Positions 55,777-64,000 of a DNA stretch of 64,000 nt are shown in pieces. Each line of letters begins with the position of its first letter. Position 1 is the first letter of the stretch. The translations under genes were made by a program, and so were the position numbers. The notes under the pieces are model-generated. The model saw only the letters and a program-made list of their open reading frames with translations. It ran no database searches and was not told the DNA's origin. The stretch comes from Chloroflexota bacterium (GTDB lineage: Bacteria > Chloroflexota > UBA11872 > VXOZ01), in NCBI GenBank assembly GCA_026710945.1, contig JAPOQA010000027.1, forward strand, positions 62,001 to 126,000, read 5' to 3'.

Positions 55777-56628
55777 GGAGGTGCTCCTTTACTTATTGGA
55801 TTGCAACAAATCTTGCTTGGGAGCCAACGGGGGCCTTATTTTTCGAATTCAGGCCCTTGGGTCTTCTGGGAACTGCCTTCGTAATGAGTATATACCTCTT
55901 GGCGCCACCCACGGCACACTGCTGTCATGTGGGTTCTTGGGTATCTTTAGCCGCTAACTGACTGCAACCAGGGGGAGGCCCGGATTGGATTCAGTCATTG
56001 CTGTAGATGTCAGGTAATTCGTTGACAGATTTGAGAACAAGAGCAACCTTTCGCAGTGTTGGACATGACTAGTACACATGTCATTCCGAACGAAGCGCAG
56101 CGAAGAGAGGAATCTAAGATGTTGAGCCTATTGGGCGACACGTTGCATGGGCCCTAGATTCCGCGAACCCTGTTCGACGCTCCGCTCGGATTGACATGCG
56201 CCGTCAACTCCTCAGAATGGAAAGCGGATTCTATCAACGATTTGCTCAACACTTACAGGAATGACATGTACGTTCGACACAGTCCAGTGAGTTGAGGGTT
56301 CTGTCAACGAATTACTCAACACGTACAATTCCCGCGCAAGTTCGCCTCTGCGTGTGGCACGGAATCCAACTACTCTTTAGCGCAAGCTTTGCGGCCCTGT
56401 TGTCTCGTGCTTGAGAACCCCTGGATTCCGGCTTTTGCCGGAATGACGGTTCAAGCTTCTCTATTCACTCTTGAGTGGGATGCTTTTTGCATGTACGCGG
56501 CATTGAAGCGCTTGCACCCTGAGAATATAATTGCCCTAATACACTTCCCGGGCGTGGAATGCCAGCCAACCTACATCTCGCCGCGATTTGGCTGCGCCAC
56601 GACCTTACCTAATGGAGCGAATTCCCCC
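55777..56628. repeat. Repeat-bearing intergenic region
   Basis: 852 bp without a supported gene. It contains 'GTCATTCCGAACGAAGCGCAGCG' type sequence near 56090, a twice-repeated 'TCAACGA.TT.CTCAACAC.TACA' stretch near 56236-56262 and 56300-56326, and a 'GGATTCCGGC'/'GCCGGAATGACGG' hairpin at about 56420-56449. The promoter of the following oxidoreductase gene is at the right end. Confidence 0.6.
56503..56531 (+). promoter_or_regulatory. Promoter of the first tandem Gfo/Idh/MocA gene
   Basis: -35 TTGAAG at 56503-56508, 17-bp spacer, -10 TATAAT at 56526-56531. The same element precedes the second copy (58137-58165), which supports it. Confidence 0.75.
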
Positions 56629-57669
56629 ATGAATACCGCGCGTCGCGCCAGGCTTGCCTTCATCGGTTGTGGCTCCTTTGCCACGGCCTCGATCTTTCCT
56701 CAGATTCAGCTTATTCCCGAGATCGACCTCGTTGCCGTCTGCGACCTCGACGAAGAAAAAGCGCAGCGCAATGCCCGCAACTTTGGCGCGCGCCGGGTTT
56801 ACACTGATATGGAAAAGATGCTCGATACCGAAGAGTTGGACGGCGTATTCACCATCGGCCCGGCGCCGCAGCAGTACCGGCTTGCGCCGGTGGGGCTCAA
56901 GCGTGGTCTGCCGGTGTACGTGGAGAAGCCGTCGGCCAATACCTCGGCGGAGGCCAAGGAACTGGCTGAATTGGCCGAGGCGAACGGCACATGGGGCCAG
57001 GTGGGCTTCATGAAGCGCTTCGCCGACGTCTATCGGATTGCCAAGGAAGTCATTGCCCGTCCCGAATTTGGCGGCCTGCACGTGCTCAAGGTCAAGTTCG
57101 GCCAGGGGAAGTATCCGCAGATTTGGGGTATTGACTCCGCCAAGCGAGCGTTTCTCATCGGCCAGTGCGTGCATATCCTTGACCTGGTGCGCTTCTTTGG
57201 CGGCGACGTGCGCGCCGTGAACGCGCTCTACTATGAGGTCGGCCCGCAAAACTTCTCCTATCTCATCAACCTGGAGTTCGTGAACGGCACGGTCGGCCAC
57301 ATGGACATCAATACGCTCGATTCCAAGGTGGGGACTCGCGACATCATCGAGACGCTGGAACTCATCGGCATGGAGACCCACGTGGTGTGTGAGGATATGA
57401 TGAAGGTCAAGTACCAGCCCCAAGAGGCGTGGTCGGCAGAAGCGCCGCGCCTCGGCCGGTACAACTTCACTCTGGAACCCTCGTGGACCGGCCTTTCGAT
57501 CAGCAAGCGCAACTTCGGCTACACCGGCGAGGTGGAGCACTTCGCCCGCCGCTGCCTGGGATTGGAAACCAGCGGCCCCGACCTCTGGGATAGCTACAAG
57601 GCACTCACGTTCGGGGAAGCGGTGTATAAGAGCTCCCACGGCGGCGGCCGGGTGCTGGTGGAACAGTAG
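56629..57669 (+). CDS. Gfo/Idh/MocA family oxidoreductase, tandem copy A
   Basis: A 346-residue NAD(P)-dependent dehydrogenase-like protein. The dinucleotide fold is 'LAFIGCGSFATASIFPQ', the cofactor/substrate 'EKP' block is in 'VYVEKPSANTSAEAKELAEL' and the C-terminal domain has 'FLIGQCVHILDLVRFFGGDVRAV'. The open frame extends 80 codons upstream through a repeat; the ATG at 56629 is chosen because the second copy starts at the same point with the same spacing from its AAGGAGCGAAT site. The two copies differ by only about one residue in twelve. Substrate unknown; probably a sugar or cyclitol. Confidence 0.9.
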   Translation: MNTARRARLAFIGCGSFATASIFPQIQLIPEIDLVAVCDLDEEKAQRNARNFGARRVYTDMEKMLDTEELDGVFTIGPAPQQYRLAPVGLKRGLPVYVEKPSANTSAEAKELAELAEANGTWGQVGFMKRFADVYRIAKEVIARPEFGGLHVLKVKFGQGKYPQIWGIDSAKRAFLIGQCVHILDLVRFFGGDVRAVNALYYEVGPQNFSYLINLEFVNGTVGHMDINTLDSKVGTRDIIETLELIGMETHVVCEDMMKVKYQPQEAWSAEAPRLGRYNFTLEPSWTGLSISKRNFGYTGEVEHFARRCLGLETSGPDLWDSYKALTFGEAVYKSSHGGGRVLVEQ

Positions 57670-57689: not shown

Positions 57690-58085
57690 TAACTCCGTCA
57701 TTCCGGCGCAAGCCGGAATCCAGAGCGCCTTTATAGCTAGAGATAGCATGATGTTAAGTCGTTTCACGCCCATCCCAACCTTCCCCCTCAAAGGTGAAGG
57801 GTTATGCAAAGGTCCCTGGGGAAGAGGGTTTGGGTGAAGACGAGCGGGGCGGTGGTGGGAGCGCCGCCGGAGGACAACAGTTGAGCAAGTAGTTGATTGA
57901 CCAATCCCGTTGAATGATTCCGATCGAGGCCCTCTCCCGGGGGAGAGGGTTTGGGTGAGGGCGAGCGGGGCGGCGGGGAGAGCGCCGCCGGAGGACAACA
58001 GTGGAGCAAATAGCTGATTGACCAACCCCGTTGAATGACTCCAATCGAGGCCCTCTCCCAGGGGGAGAGGGTTAGGGTGAGGGCG
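57690..58085. repeat. Repeat block between tandem oxidoreductase genes
   Basis: It starts with a 'GTCATTCCGGCGCAAGCCGGAATCC' type hairpin at about 57698-57722. From about 57780 to 58085 a unit of roughly 120 bp is present twice and partly a third time: CCTCTCCC/GGGAGAGG hairpin, 'GGGTGAGGGCGAGCGGGGCGG', 'GCGCCGCCGGAGGACAACAG', then 'TTGACCAA.CCCGTTGAATGA'. The hairpin part is the core of the array at 10822-11190. Confidence 0.8.
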
Positions 58086-58136
58086 ACCGATTGCAATTGC
58101 TGCCATGTCCGGGCAAATGCGAGGGACAGCCCGGCA

Positions 58137-58165
58137 TTGATACGCTTGCAGCCTGGGAATATAAT
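58137..58165 (+). promoter_or_regulatory. Promoter of the second tandem Gfo/Idh/MocA gene
   Basis: -35 TTGATA at 58137-58142, 17-bp spacer, -10 TATAAT at 58160-58165. The surrounding 40 bp match the promoter of copy A closely, so the duplication took the promoter along. Confidence 0.78.
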
Positions 58166-58262
58166 TGCCGTAATACTCTTGACGGTGCAATGAGGCTGCT
58201 CTCGAAATGTTCTCCCCAGTGCGCTTGCACCGTGCCCCCCATCGCAAGGAGCGAATCCCCCC

Positions 58263-59303
58263 ATGAGTACCGAGCGCCGAGCCAGACTTGCCTTCATCGG
58301 TTGTGGTTCATTTGCCACGGCCTCGATCTTTCCTCAGATTCAACTTATTCCCGAGATTGACCTCGTTGCCGTCTGCGACATCGACGAAGAAAAGGCCCAG
58401 CGCAACGCTCGCAACTTTGGGGCGCGGCGTGTTTACACCGACATGGACAAAATGCTCGATACTGAAGAGTTGGATGGTGTCTTCACCATCGGTCCGGCGC
58501 CGCAGCAGTATCAGCTGGCGCCGGTGGTGCTCAAGCGCGGCCTGCCGGTTTACACGGAGAAGCCGTCGGCCAATACTTCGGCTGAGGCCAAGGAACTGGC
58601 CGAACTCGCAGAGGCGAATAACACGTGGGGCCAGGTGGGCTTCATGAAGCGCTTCGCCGACGTGTACACCATCGCCAAGGAGATTGTGGCGCGGCCGGAG
58701 TTTGGCGGTCTGCACGTGCTCAAGGTCAAGTTCGGGCAGGGCAAGTATCCGCAGATTTGGGGTATTGACTCCGCCAAGCGCGCGTTTCTCATCGGCCAGT
58801 GCGTGCACATCTTCGACTTGGTGCGCTTCTTTGGCGGGGACGTGCGCGCCGTGAACGCCCTCTACTACGAGGTGGGACCGCAGAATTTCTCGTATCTCAT
58901 CAATCTGGAGTTTGTGAACGGCACCGTCGGCCAGATGGATATTAATACCCTCGATTCTAAGGTAGCTTTCCGTGACATCATCGAGACGCTGGAGCTGATT
59001 GGGTTTGAGAATCACGTAGTGTGCGAAGACATGATGAAGGTCACGTACCAGCCCCGCGAGGAGTGGACGCAAGAAGCGCCGGGCTTCGGCCGCTATAACT
59101 ACACGCTCGATCCCTCCTGGACCGGCCTAGGGCGCAGCCAGATAAACTACGGCTACACCGGCGAGGTGCGCCACTTCGCGCGCCGTTGCCTGGGCCTGGA
59201 AACCAGCGGCCCCGACCTCTGGGATAGCTACAAGTCCCTCACGTTCGGCGAAGCAGTGTATGAAAGCTCCCACGGCGGCGGCCGGGTGCTGGTGGAGCAG
59301 TAG
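58263..59303 (+). CDS. Gfo/Idh/MocA family oxidoreductase, tandem copy B
   Basis: Paralog of the preceding gene, same length (346 residues) and over 90% alike by eye. It has the same 'FIGCGSFATASIFPQ' fold, 'VYTEKPSANTSAEAKELAEL' block (Thr for Val before the EKP) and 'FLIGQCVHIFDLVRFFGGD'. Differences cluster in the C-terminal third (e.g. 'FGRYNYTLDPSWTGLGRSQINYGYTGEV'), which lies near the substrate pocket in this family, so specificity may have shifted. AAGGAGCGAAT precedes the ATG. Confidence 0.9.
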   Translation: MSTERRARLAFIGCGSFATASIFPQIQLIPEIDLVAVCDIDEEKAQRNARNFGARRVYTDMDKMLDTEELDGVFTIGPAPQQYQLAPVVLKRGLPVYTEKPSANTSAEAKELAELAEANNTWGQVGFMKRFADVYTIAKEIVARPEFGGLHVLKVKFGQGKYPQIWGIDSAKRAFLIGQCVHIFDLVRFFGGDVRAVNALYYEVGPQNFSYLINLEFVNGTVGQMDINTLDSKVAFRDIIETLELIGFENHVVCEDMMKVTYQPREEWTQEAPGFGRYNYTLDPSWTGLGRSQINYGYTGEVRHFARRCLGLETSGPDLWDSYKSLTFGEAVYESSHGGGRVLVEQ

Positions 59304-59917
59304 GCGCTGCTGCTGAACGGAGAGTTGGAGCACGCAAGTATCGTCGGGGCACCGCAATACTTGAGAGACTTGCGCAGCAATCAGAGTAGCTCGGTTCCGT
59401 TCCGCCCAAAGTGCGGGGAAAAGCCCCAATCTTGGCGCATTGATCCAGCGTCCAAGCCGTTCGCCCTGAGCCAGGTCGAAATTGGAGACAAGCCCCCGCC
59501 CCGTTCGCCCTGAGCTTGTCGAAGGGTCGAAGGGTGAACGGCTCGCGCATGGATTGGACGGCTTTGGGCCTTCTACGCTCCGTTTGTGCTTCGACAGGCT
59601 CAGCACGAACGGAGAAAATTGAATCCGTCCGCTCTTACGTGACAGCATTGGGGACAAGCCCCTGCCCCGTTCGACCTGAGCAAGGGCGAACGGGGCAGGG
59701 GCAGGCTGGTCGGCTCTGAGCCTGCTACGCTCCGTGCCACCCAGCTCTTGGGTCAAGAGGCGGAAAACGAATCGGGCGTCGGCGGCTCCGGTAGCGCAGG
59801 TTCGCACGCGCCGTGCGCGCAACTTGCGTTCCGTCTCGCGAAAAAGAGTGTATAATCACCGGTGATGAGTCTGATATTGGTTGTACTTAGGAGAGTCTTT
59901 GAGAAGGAGTGAGCCTA
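59304..59917. repeat. Repeat-filled intergenic region
   Basis: 614 bp with no supported gene. It holds several 'CGTTCGCCCTGAGC.TGTCGAAGGG' type elements (about 59458, 59505, 59587, 59668) in both orientations and two 'GGGGACAAGCCCC' hairpins (about 59410-59425 and 59650-59664), plus 'GGTAGCGCAGGTT' at about 59790. A TATAAT at 59851-59856 may be the -10 of the dioxygenase gene; its -35 is poor. Confidence 0.7.
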
Positions 59918-60697
59918 ATGGCTACTGCGCAGTTGGTGACTTTAGCGCCGGAGCAGAAGCAGTTTTTCGATGACAACGGCTATCTGGTGATGGAGGGGTT
60001 GTACGACGCCGCTGAGATGGAGGAGATGCGGGCGGAGTTTCACGACCTCATTACGAATACCGATGGCCGGCCCAAGGCCATGAGATACACCTTCATGGAG
60101 CAGGCGGAGGGGTATCCCATCGACCCCTATAACCCCAAGAACGTACAGGGCATCATGGACCAGCCGTTGGCGAGCGATTACTGGTTCAACAACGTTACCG
60201 ACCCCCGCATAGTGAACGTCTTCATCGACCTCTTCGGCCCGGACATCGACTTTCACAATGGCAAGGTGCGCAACAATCCGCCGGGCTTCACGAATGAACA
60301 GGGCTGGCACCAGGACTGGCCGTACGAGCTTCACAGCAAGTCGGACCTGGCGGCGGCCATCATCTACCTGGACGCCAACGACGTAGACCAAGGCGCGACT
60401 ACGGTGCTGCCCGGCAGCCACCTGATGGGCGAGTGGGAGACGTCACACGGCCATACCGTAGCCGACGAGAAGGTGGCGGACTACGAGCCCGTGCCGATGC
60501 TTGCCAAGCCCGGCGACGTGCTCTTCATCCACGTGATGGTGCTGCACACCGCGGGCAACAACTACAGCAACACCTCGCGCCATAAGGTCATCAACGAATA
60601 CAAGTCCAAAGAAGCCATCGACCAGTGGGGCAACCGCTGCGCCTACGCTGGAATGCCCGTAGCCCGCAACGGCCAGGTGTGCATCCCGCAACTCTAG
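59918..60697 (+). CDS. Phytanoyl-CoA dioxygenase (PhyH) family protein
   Basis: Fe(II)/2-oxoglutarate-dependent dioxygenase, 259 residues. The start 'FFDDNGYLVMEGLYD' is typical of PhyH proteins. The iron triad is visible: H131 and D133 in 'GWHQDW' and the distal H210 in 'VLHTAGNN', with R221 ('SRHKV') as likely 2-oxoglutarate ligand. 'TTVLPGSHLMGEWE' is the usual strand before the distal site. AAGGAG sets the ATG at 59918 over a GTG at 59909. Substrates in such genomes are often small molecules rather than phytanoyl-CoA; none can be named here. Confidence 0.92.
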   Translation: MATAQLVTLAPEQKQFFDDNGYLVMEGLYDAAEMEEMRAEFHDLITNTDGRPKAMRYTFMEQAEGYPIDPYNPKNVQGIMDQPLASDYWFNNVTDPRIVNVFIDLFGPDIDFHNGKVRNNPPGFTNEQGWHQDWPYELHSKSDLAAAIIYLDANDVDQGATTVLPGSHLMGEWETSHGHTVADEKVADYEPVPMLAKPGDVLFIHVMVLHTAGNNYSNTSRHKVINEYKSKEAIDQWGNRCAYAGMPVARNGQVCIPQL

Positions 60698-60831: not shown

Positions 60832-61020
60832 CTACCTAGATGCGCGCGGCTTGCCGCCCGGGGGTTTGCGCGAGGACCTAACAATCGGCGGCCTCTCCTT
60901 GGGGCCAGTGCCGCGCTTGACAGGGATACGTGCCTTAGCATTCATCTTGGCAGGCCGGTCTTTTGGCGATCCTCCTTCTCGGAAAGAGCCTTCCTTGCCG
61001 CCTCTATCGCTATCTGCCAT
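60832..61020 (-). CDS. Pro/Lys-rich basic microprotein (cassette B, second gene)
   Basis: A 62-residue protein rich in Lys, Arg, Pro and Gly, starting MADSDRGGKEGSF. GGGAGG lies five bases before the ATG at 61020 (another ATG is three bases earlier). It carries two copies of a motif: 'GGSPKDRPAK' and 'GTGPKERPPIVRSSRKPPG'. The second matches 'GGGPKKRPPKTVSNRPPG' of the microprotein at 61334, so the two are homologous. It is 23 bp downstream of the truncated membrane-protein homolog. Likely disordered; it could bind nucleic acid, acidic lipid or a partner SH3-like domain, which is speculation. Confidence 0.6.
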   Translation of the reverse strand: MADSDRGGKEGSFREGGSPKDRPAKMNAKARIPVKRGTGPKERPPIVRSSRKPPGGKPRASR

Positions 61021-61043
61021 CATATCCTCCCATTGCACACGCT

Positions 61044-61337
61044 TTAGGGCCGCGACCTCATAATATCATGGAATGTCATTGCTACCCAGCCCTCGGCAGT
61101 TTGCGTCCCCGGCGAGAATTTGGAATTGTAGAAATAGGTGTATATGCTGACCGCTTCTACATCTTTGGATACAAGGAATTCAAAGGTCTCCGGGTGTCTC
61201 TCACCTGGCTCCACGACTACCTCACACTTTGGAAAGACAATGAGCCCAAGCAAGTCATCGTATCGTCTGAAGAGCCTCTGCGCAAGCCCGTGGTATGGGA
61301 ACAGAGGAGGAAACGATACGCGCCCGGCCACTATCAT
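61044..61337 (-). CDS. Truncated homolog of the cassette membrane protein (cassette B, first gene)
   Basis: A 97-residue frame whose last 50 residues match the end of the protein at 61502: 'VVVEPGERHPETFEFLVSK' against 'LIVEPGESHQETCEFIVSQ', then 'SIYTYFYNS' in both (IIYTYFYNS in the other). The two membrane helices and the middle of the full protein are absent. Its ATG overlaps the stop of the microprotein at 61334 (ATGA), so it may still be translated by coupling. Whether it is a functional short form or a decaying duplicate cannot be told. Confidence 0.6.
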   Translation of the reverse strand: MIVAGRVSFPPLFPYHGLAQRLFRRYDDLLGLIVFPKCEVVVEPGERHPETFEFLVSKDVEAVSIYTYFYNSKFSPGTQTAEGWVAMTFHDIMRSRP

Positions 61338-61477
61338 TTGGGTGGCTTCGACGACTGGGGAGGCTTAGGATTGATCGGTCCCGGCGGTCTATTCGAAACG
61401 GTCTTTGGTGGCCTCTTCTTAGGCCCACCGCCTTTTTGTCCGACGTTATCTTTTCGAACCTTAGAACTTGCCGGCAC
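61334..61477 (-). CDS. Pro/Lys-rich basic microprotein (cassette A, second gene)
   Basis: A 47-residue frame from a GTG at 61477 with an excellent AAGGAGG nine bases before it. The product begins (V)PASSKVRKDNVGQKGG and carries 'GGGPKKRPPKTVSNRPPG' followed by a Pro/Lys tail ending 'SSKPPK'. It has no Trp, no hydrophobic segment and a strong positive charge. It starts 24 bp after the membrane-protein gene stop. The shared motif G-x-G/S-P-K-x-R-P with the microprotein at 60832, and the same gene order, show that the pair was duplicated. Confidence 0.62.
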   Translation of the reverse strand: MPASSKVRKDNVGQKGGGPKKRPPKTVSNRPPGPINPKPPQSSKPPK

Positions 61478-61501
61478 TGAAACCCTCCTTAAAACCACCG
61501 C

Positions 61502-62149
61502 TCATTGACCGCGGTCATCTATGTCGTGGATCGCGGTTGCGCCCCACCCTTGGGGAACTTGCGGCACTCTCGAATTGTAGAAGTACGTGTATATGATAAC
61601 TGATTGGACTCCCTGTGAGACTATGAATTCGCATGTTTCTTGGTGTGATTCGCCCGGTTCCACGATGAGCACGTCTTTGTCCCATGTGCGCGGAACTTCA
61701 TCCAGCGTGGGCCATTGAATGCTCTCGTATTCTTCCTCCTCAAGTGCCTGGCTGTACTGGGCATAGAGGGCCTCCGCGTCCTCGTCCGACACCGGGCTTA
61801 TTTGCTGCAACAAGAAGAACGCTTCGCGGAACTCCATCTTGACCCTTGAGCCGTTATGCAAGGTTGCCATGACCGCGACGTGCACATAGCTATCGCCAAT
61901 GAACCTATGGGATACGCTGTTCACAATCGTCAGGTGCGGCTCGGATTCGCGGAATGCCTGCCACTTGTAGGCGGCGAAGATCCCACCCAGGATCACTGCC
62001 AACGCCGTCACCCCCGCCTGCATGCCCCACAGCACGTCCTTCACGCGCGTCGCGTCAGGCGCGAAATGATACGCTGTCAGGAAAACAAGGCACAGCCCGA
62101 CCACGACCGCGAGGACTGTGACAATGAGGCCGACGTTCAGCTTGCCCAT
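61502..62149 (-). CDS. Two-helix membrane protein of unknown function (cassette A, first gene)
   Basis: A 215-residue protein with two hydrophobic helices near the N-terminus (about 7-26 and 44-61) and a soluble C-terminal domain of about 150 residues that looks beta-rich: 'YVHVAVMATLHNGSRVKMEF', 'DVLIVEPGESHQETCEF' and 'VIIYTYFYNS'. A short acidic stretch (EEEEYES) lies between. The alternation of strands and the 'NGS' turn resemble immunoglobulin-like or transthyretin-like folds, but no family is recognised. With a short loop between the helices, both ends would lie on the same side. It heads a cassette with a basic microprotein. Confidence 0.7.
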   Translation of the reverse strand: MGKLNVGLIVTVLAVVVGLCLVFLTAYHFAPDATRVKDVLWGMQAGVTALAVILGGIFAAYKWQAFRESEPHLTIVNSVSHRFIGDSYVHVAVMATLHNGSRVKMEFREAFFLLQQISPVSDEDAEALYAQYSQALEEEEYESIQWPTLDEVPRTWDKDVLIVEPGESHQETCEFIVSQGVQSVIIYTYFYNSRVPQVPQGWGATAIHDIDDRGQ

Positions 62150-62404: not shown

Positions 62405-64000
62405 ATGCAATCGCTGACAATCGACAGCATCGCAAAATTGGAGGAAGCCGGGCACAGGCTTTTTCAACTTCTGGATGAAGGAGACGCATCGGGAGCTTTG
62501 GAGTTTGCAAAGTCCTTGCGAGCAGACCCAGGTCAAGAGTTGCCAGTTGAACACTTTCTCGGCTGTGCTTACGTTGAGGTCGGCGGTCAGCTCAAGAGTG
62601 TCGACTTGGTAGATAAGGGTGTTCGAATCCTAAGTGAATTGGACCCTAAGCGTTCGGCGACGATTTCTTACAACCTAGCCAATGCTAAATCGCAACTTTG
62701 GAAAATTGCTGTGAACCAAAACGGCCTTAGCACTGCATGGCTGGAGATGCGTTGTCAACTTCGCGATTCTCGAAAATTATATGAGTCTGTTGCCAATGAC
62801 GACAACGCAGATATCGAGCAACGCCTGAAAGCCTTTACAGATTGGGGTAACTCCTACGACAATCAGGGCCGGTATCTTGACGCCCTTGATTGCTACGACC
62901 AGGCACTTAGGCTCGACCCATCGTATGGCATGGCCCTCGGCAACCGAGGCATGGCTCTTTTCTTTGCCGCGCCGCTAATGGGAGAGCACCAATCACACAT
63001 ATTGCTTGAAGCAGCCACCAACCTTGACGCAGCTATAGAGAATGAGAAAAGTGTCTTGAACTCCGGCGGAAGGCAAGCACTTGAAGTGTTCGAGAAGTGT
63101 CGTGCCTACATATCAACACCTTCAGGTACGCCTTTGAAACCGAAAAATAATCGTCAAACGCTCAGTGACAGTCATCTCAATTGGTGTCTGAACAACAGGT
63201 TCTTTCTGCACATCTCACCCGATTGTATTCGCGAAGATTCAGATGTGCTTGATCCACTCTCCTTTAGAGAGATTAGCTTTAGTTTAAAGGAGCCAAGAAT
63301 TTCCCCCGATGGAGAGCCTCTCAAAGCCGCCAAGGAAATTCTTGGTGCTTTCAATGCAATCAAGCAGGATTACATTACTGCTCGGTATCTCACTTGGCTT
63401 ACGAGCGAGATTCCAATACCGTTTCAAGATCACGTACAGTCCATCACAAAGCGTGCCTTTTTCTGGGATACGCTGGATTATGCAAGCTGGGGCGTCGAGC
63501 CGGGAATTGCTACGATCGCACTGAAAGCTGCAGTGGACGTTTTGGACAAAGTCGCAGTCTTCGTTCACCTATACTTGCGTTCCAACCGCAATGTGCGCAG
63601 CGTGAATTTTGCCACTCTTCCCTATAAGAACAATAAAGGGACAGAACTTGAGCCTGCCCTTGCGAACGCGCTAAGGACTCCGGCTGGGAATTGGAACTCG
63701 GGACTTATCGCTCTAATTGACCTTAGTTCTGAATTAGAAGAAAAGTCACAATCCCACTTGAGAAAGTTCCTTCAGTATCGGCACGCTGCAACTCACCGCT
63801 TCTTTGTCATTCACTCTGAGGGAGCACCTGTTTCATCCGAATGGAGCGAACACGTCAGTTGGTCTGACGCCACTAAGGATTTGCTTTGCTTGCTCAAAGT
63901 GGCACGCCGTGCGGTCTTGTACTTGACGCAAATGATTCACTTGCATGAGGCCGACATTAAACCCCGATGTTCCGGTACATCTTATCCAATGACCATTCCA
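62405..64000 (+). CDS. TPR protein with LA2681-like HEPN domain (3' end outside window)
   Basis: An open frame of 532 codons from the ATG at 62405 with no stop before the window ends. The N-terminal third has TPR-like repeats, best seen as 'NSYDNQGRYLDALDCYDQALRLDPSYGMALGNRG' in parts at about 150-185. The C-terminal part resembles the LA2681-like HEPN domain; 'RHAATHRFF' provides an Rx4H motif (R459, H464), the RNase signature of active HEPN proteins. Such TPR-HEPN proteins are predicted to be RNA-cleaving defence or stress effectors. The gene is more AT-rich than the chromosome around it, which suggests transfer. The start is the first Met of the frame; no strong ribosome site is seen. Confidence 0.8.
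   Translation, partial: MQSLTIDSIAKLEEAGHRLFQLLDEGDASGALEFAKSLRADPGQELPVEHFLGCAYVEVGGQLKSVDLVDKGVRILSELDPKRSATISYNLANAKSQLWKIAVNQNGLSTAWLEMRCQLRDSRKLYESVANDDNADIEQRLKAFTDWGNSYDNQGRYLDALDCYDQALRLDPSYGMALGNRGMALFFAAPLMGEHQSHILLEAATNLDAAIENEKSVLNSGGRQALEVFEKCRAYISTPSGTPLKPKNNRQTLSDSHLNWCLNNRFFLHISPDCIREDSDVLDPLSFREISFSLKEPRISPDGEPLKAAKEILGAFNAIKQDYITARYLTWLTSEIPIPFQDHVQSITKRAFFWDTLDYASWGVEPGIATIALKAAVDVLDKVAVFVHLYLRSNRNVRSVNFATLPYKNNKGTELEPALANALRTPAGNWNSGLIALIDLSSELEEKSQSHLRKFLQYRHAATHRFFVIHSEGAPVSSEWSEHVSWSDATKDLLCLLKVARRAVLYLTQMIHLHEADIKPRCSGTSYPMTIP

Follow-up and report, generated by a model that had tools for sequence, protein, structure and literature searches.

A two-gene unit of a membrane protein and a polybasic microprotein in restriction-gene hotspots of Chloroflexi-type genomes: a possible antiphage module

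Gene organization of the array

The window analysed here is a stretch of 64,000 nucleotides from a Chloroflexota bacterium (contig 27 of its assembly, positions 62,001 to 126,000). Four short open reading frames (ORFs) lie on its minus strand, in which a gene for a predicted membrane protein (M) and a gene for a basic microprotein (m) alternate. The locus raises two questions: whether M and m work as a pair, as the earlier note on this DNA proposed, and what such a pair would do.

The coordinates and strand of all four ORFs were confirmed, and their order on the minus strand is M_A, m_A, M_B' and m_B. M_A (61502–62149, minus strand) starts with ATG and encodes 215 aa; the ORF, its hydrophobicity, its relatives and a low-confidence AlphaFold2 model point to two N-terminal helices followed by an acidic, beta-rich C-terminal domain. 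m_A (61334–61477, minus strand) starts with GTG and encodes a basic Pro/Lys-rich microprotein of 47 aa with a net charge of +11. It is preceded by the Shine-Dalgarno (SD) site AAGGAGG (−12.6 kcal/mol) and matches the m profile at E 9e-11. M_B' (61044–61337, minus strand) is what decay has left of a second M, its C-terminal part, and the ATGA overlap that couples it to m_A was found as first described. m_B (60832–61020, minus strand) starts with ATG, encodes a basic Pro/Lys-rich microprotein of 62 aa, has the SD site GGGAGGA (−10.2 kcal/mol) and matches the m profile at E 4e-12. The strong SD sites first noticed before the two microprotein genes are thus both present.

M_B' matches M only over the C-terminal ~53–76 residues; the helices are missing and no hydrophobic segment is predicted. 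It is 58% identical to M residues 158–210 and is closer to the M of the congener G003 (77.0 bits) than to M_A (61.6 bits). Likewise, m_B is closer to the G003 m (dN 0.51) than to m_A (dN 0.78). A recent tandem duplication of units A and B was rejected, as M_B' and m_B are nearer to the G003-type unit. The earlier note had read the array as a duplicated two-gene cassette and had taken the retention of both genes as an argument for pairing. Both gene types do stand in tandem and pairing is supported, but this particular argument loses force, because only a remnant is left of the second M and the divergence of the two units is ancient. A broken M in the congener G004 resembles M_A at its start (85%) and the G003 M at its end (90%), a mosaic that would be expected if an ancestral A-B array had collapsed by deletion. 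Judged from these comparisons, the window holds an array that is old and consists of two diverged units; in the second, M has decayed and m persists.

Relatives of the pair

M-m relatives are spread over seven loci, in five genomes of Chloroflexi type that belong to two genera. One of these relatives lies in a metagenome-derived assembly recorded as 'Chloroflexi bacterium'. A second intact M in the window's own genome (G000, contig 30) is 52% identical to M_A and is followed by its own m. In G003, M is again followed by m, and in G004 the M upstream of m is disrupted by stop codons, a frameshift and a deletion. In a second genus of the class (g8), the unit occurs twice in G030 and also in G031; here M overlaps m, and a second, convergent m lies 3' of the first. 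No further relatives were found in 41 genomes of the class, in a 400-genome sample of the phylum, in viral contigs searched with M profiles, or in plasmids and phages searched by tblastn of M. A scan of genome contigs for exact peptide words, by which distant relatives could be missed, returned the G003 contig only.

An m lies directly downstream of M in 6/6 intact M genes and 2/2 decayed ones, in a small sample of related loci (seven, from five genomes and two genera). M and m are an obligate pair in fixed order. Because the loci share ancestry, the two cases of decayed M may represent one event. The two genes are 24–25 bp apart or overlap by 11, 32 or 80 bp, which suggests coupled translation. 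The order is more than chance, since the window's genome has it at a further locus and four other genomes share it. The layout is also beyond chance in that the m profile reaches E 1e-10 to 1e-22 only beside M. Across the 41 genomes of the class, 11 loci matched this profile with an E of at most 1e-10, all of them adjoining M, and no match below 0.01 lay away from M. The profile was built from the sequences of those same 11 loci, so its informative part is the missing unlinked matches. Weak matches elsewhere (E 0.01–1) look like noise.

Selection and translation signals

Pairs of M genes gave dN/dS values of 0.2–0.3, indicating purifying selection. The m genes of G003 and G004 are under purifying selection as well (dN/dS 0.26, Fisher p = 0.0004). 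The earlier note held that M homologues lacking a downstream m, or an m free of purifying selection, would speak against its proposal that the two genes work as a pair. Every M found has an m, and purifying selection acts on m; the proposal is supported. The first m of g8 gave pairwise dN/dS of 0.12, 0.35 and 0.82, each from few changes.

The second m of g8 behaves differently, with dN/dS near 0.7–1.1 and a differing N-terminal half; as a possible recombined copy, it says little about function. In one G030 copy (contig 294), the C-terminal half of the second m is common to the other two g8 second m genes and the N-terminal half is unrelated. A block of 91.5% identity between G030 contig 294 and G031 begins inside this gene, which suggests recombination at the conserved KPPGG region.

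The SD duplex energy was −7.7 to −12.6 kcal/mol for 11/11 m genes and −5.0 to +0.5 kcal/mol for 6/6 M genes. Each m therefore has a stronger SD site than any M (Mann-Whitney p = 0.0005, for sequences that are related and not independent).

Sequence and predicted structure of M and m

Hydrophobicity prediction placed two hydrophobic segments at the N-terminus of M_A and none elsewhere. Basic residues (KWQ.FR) follow the second helix, which suggests that the C-terminal domain is cytoplasmic. This domain has a net charge of −16 in M_A, and the range across M domains is −8 to −17. The AlphaFold2 model of M_A, computed from a six-row alignment, is of low confidence (pLDDT 61, pTM 0.45) and has helices at 6–29 and 33–69 followed by a beta-sandwich-like domain. 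The domain modelled alone gave similar strands, also at low confidence (pLDDT 55). The best Foldseek neighbours of these weak models are largely peptide-binding Ig-like domains (MSP/VAP, GAE, AP-2 mu2), none of them significant, and may be taken as a mere hint.

M had no significant match in Pfam, NCBIfam, PADLOC or PHROGs. Its sole PADLOC match was to a CBASS 2TM effector at E 0.038, covering residues 9–67, which are the helices only; the other members of the M family had no PADLOC match at 0.01. When the M and m profiles were run against PDB sequences, no convincing match emerged.

m_A and m_B have a pI of about 11.7–11.8, and the net charge of the m proteins is +7 to +12. They share the core G-x-x-P-[KR]-x-x-P...[KR]-P-P-G-G and are probably disordered. 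The m proteins of the window had no Pfam, NCBIfam or PADLOC match, and m has neither a recognisable DNA-binding domain nor an antitoxin match.

Genomic setting

The array lies in a site bounded on the left by a PhyH dioxygenase gene (59909–60697, plus strand; Pfam PhyH E 3e-28), which is 90–94% identical in five congeners. Divergent from M_A is a gene for a TPR protein with an LA2681-like HEPN domain (62405–64000, plus strand, running on to contig 27 position 126045; Pfam HEPN_LA2681 E 9e-29). This gene encodes an RHAATH (Rx4H) motif, lies in a low-GC stretch (49.8%) and is absent from all five congeners; it probably represents a recent acquisition, a defence gene of the RNase type. A review covers HEPN genes, the LA2681 family among them, and their association with R-M systems (PMC3710099). 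A Type IIG RM gene (contig 27: 126257–129487; PADLOC E 1e-63) follows just right of the window, and its product is 80% identical to the Type IIG RM of the congener G005. To the left of the site, two closely similar Gfo/Idh/MocA-type oxidoreductase genes, recognised by eye, stand in tandem (56389–57669 and 58263–59303, plus strand). Dispersed repeats that, when translated, read FDKLSANGL, ALSLSKG and PNPLPLGEG are common in the intergenic regions of the genus (e.g. window 57700–59700, L008:5676-6140).

In this first hotspot, all congeners retain both flanks, PhyH on the left and a CAP gene on the right. In G002, G003 and G004 the genes after PhyH are DUF3604 and CAP, and no defence gene intervenes. 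G005 has in addition a C5-cytosine methylase, a HATPase-type restriction enzyme, a Vsr gene and the Type IIG RM. The window's genome carries m_B, M_B', m_A, M_A, TPR-HEPN and the Type IIG RM, and DUF3604 is left only as a remnant. The second hotspot, flanked by an ABC-2 permease gene and a ceramidase-like gene, is empty in G002 and G005. In G003 it holds a 1.1-kb insert consisting of M and m alone, as it does on contig 30 of the window's genome. No insert-end repeats of the kind that mark transposons were found around the G003 insert, and the minimal 1.1-kb insert has no accompanying transposase or mobile replicon. Behind the same permease, G004 has a Type IIG RM, an IS1595 transposase, a DUF5677 gene, the broken M and m. 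The DUF5677 gene (L011:9139-10347, plus strand; Pfam E 2e-29) is divergent to M and lies between RM and M, like the HEPN gene of the window; this position is perhaps an interchangeable slot. Both sites thus have conserved flanks and variable content that includes known defence genes, the first in five genomes.

The M-m units on G030 contig 294 and in G031 lie beside the same Type IIG RM family. A Type IIG RM lies within about 5 kb of 4/7 M-m loci; with intervening genes, its distance from M is about 2 kb in the window's genome and about 4 kb in G004. At least two loci within 5 kb of this RM family would arise by chance with p about 1e-4, a rough figure for which four loci were taken as independent. 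On contig 30 of both G000 and G003, M-m occurs without restriction genes nearby. The unit is present in some genomes and missing from others at slots that restriction systems also occupy, and it can stand alone. The close relatives of the Type IIG RM (in G005, G004, G007, G027, G030 and G031) have differing 3' companions: Vsr, an OLD-like ATPase recognised by eye, or M-m.

Likeness to known systems

No described system matching the M-m pair was found in the open-access literature. Type II toxin-antitoxin modules are alike in having two small adjacent, often overlapping genes, and the two genes adjoin in all M-m pairs. They are also alike in that a short, basic, probably disordered protein stands beside a possible effector, and in that the putative restraint m has the stronger ribosome-binding site, survives the decay of its partner and is of accessory distribution. 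Unlike them, the pair has a membrane protein, M, whose large domain is beta-rich, and an m in which no DNA-binding domain is recognisable; the gene of the putative effector M also comes first. No toxin or antitoxin family in Pfam, NCBIfam or PADLOC matched the m proteins of the window, and none matched M significantly; any resemblance to toxin-antitoxin or abortive-infection modules would be one of mechanism.

The two-TM effectors of CBASS and Pycsar (Cap14, Cap15, PycTM) have an N-terminal two-helix region and a cytosolic domain, which is beta-rich in Cap15. M likewise has two N-terminal helices and then a cytosolic domain by prediction, whereas its best fold matches, all non-significant, are Ig-like beta-sandwiches. 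No CD-NTase or nucleotide cyclase gene was recognised among the long ORFs within several kb, of which a subset was HMM-scanned, or among the Pfam-scanned neighbours. M as a CBASS 2TM effector (Cap14/Cap15) was rejected, as the PADLOC match was confined to the helices and no Pfam effector domain matched. Type IIG RM islands with HEPN or Vsr companions are alike in that M-m uses the same slots and neighbours; they differ in that neither M nor m is a gene of restriction or methylation, and in that two M-m loci lack such genes.

Proposed function and alternatives

We tentatively propose that M-m is a minimal accessory module, likely antiphage, in which polybasic m in excess binds and restrains M; we consider this a real possibility that falls short of probable. 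M would be held in the inner membrane by its two N-terminal helices, with the acidic beta-sandwich-like domain facing the cytoplasm. The short, probably disordered m would be made from M's message at a higher rate, if, as we infer, the two genes are co-transcribed. The m core would bind the acidic domain and keep M inactive; opposite charge alone is no proof of such direct binding. When m is lost or titrated, for example in infection, freed M would act on the membrane, by damage or depolarisation, or would arrest the cell. M would then be the harmful effector, though no database family supports an effector role, and phage would be the presumed trigger of its release. The restraining role of m is favoured because m is always present, is more strongly initiated, outlives M and is of opposite charge, and the putative defence role because M-m sits in restriction-gene hotspots. 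The earlier note had offered a membrane sensor or anchor with a polycation ligand; the opposite charges are compatible with that model and nothing favours sensing; the retained m and its much stronger ribosome-binding sites fit an antidote slightly better.

Other readings were weighed against this one. A membrane housekeeping or stress pair, an envelope sensor with a basic ligand and no link to defence, would agree with the purifying selection and with the two loci at the permease/ceramidase site that lack restriction genes. We think it unlikely: close congeners lack M-m at the corresponding sites, the unit undergoes decay and it is found clustered with RM genes, and these features mark it as accessory. 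Similarly doubtful is a plain addiction module that stabilises its own locus and has no defence role. It would account for the self-contained 1.1-kb presence/absence unit in G003 and for m being kept where M is lost, but repeated placement beside Type IIG RM genes, improbable under the simple independence model (p about 1e-4), favours a shared role, and the minimal insert has neither transposase nor mobile replicon.

Superinfection exclusion, in which M would keep phage DNA from entering at the inner membrane and m would serve as a positive partner (ligand or assembly factor), not an antidote, would suit a small two-helix membrane protein in defence hotspots that is obligately paired with m. 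It leaves the persistence of m after M decay at two loci unexplained; moreover, known exclusion proteins are usually prophage-borne, whereas no viral or phage relative was found, and we regard it as quite unlikely. That m, together with M, tunes or localises the Type IIG restriction enzyme seems improbable to us, although an RM of the same family is adjacent at four of the seven loci and, in G030 contig 294 and G031, the RM is followed directly 3', on its own strand, by a second m. No m lies near the RM relatives of G005, G007 and G027, M-m occurs without RM in G003 and on G000 contig 30, and between G030 and G031 the cassette and the RM have diverged to different degrees (91.5% vs 78% identity). 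These unlinked copies also make it unlikely that M-m is part of the RM enzyme itself.

Within the restraint model, M-m might represent a new class of abortive-infection or toxin-antitoxin system, defined by an acidic Ig-like inner-membrane effector, a disordered polybasic KPPGG restrainer acting electrostatically and a 1.1-kb unit in RM hotspots; we hold this to be rather unlikely. M and m both fall outside every family library searched, and a polybasic ORF of ~50 residues is easily overlooked by gene callers. Both hotspots are concrete sites in this bacterial class in which to seek more defence genes. If M-m is a true defence module, a self-contained membrane system of very small size (1.1 kb) would join those known, and the pair would illustrate how a disordered microprotein can restrain a membrane effector.
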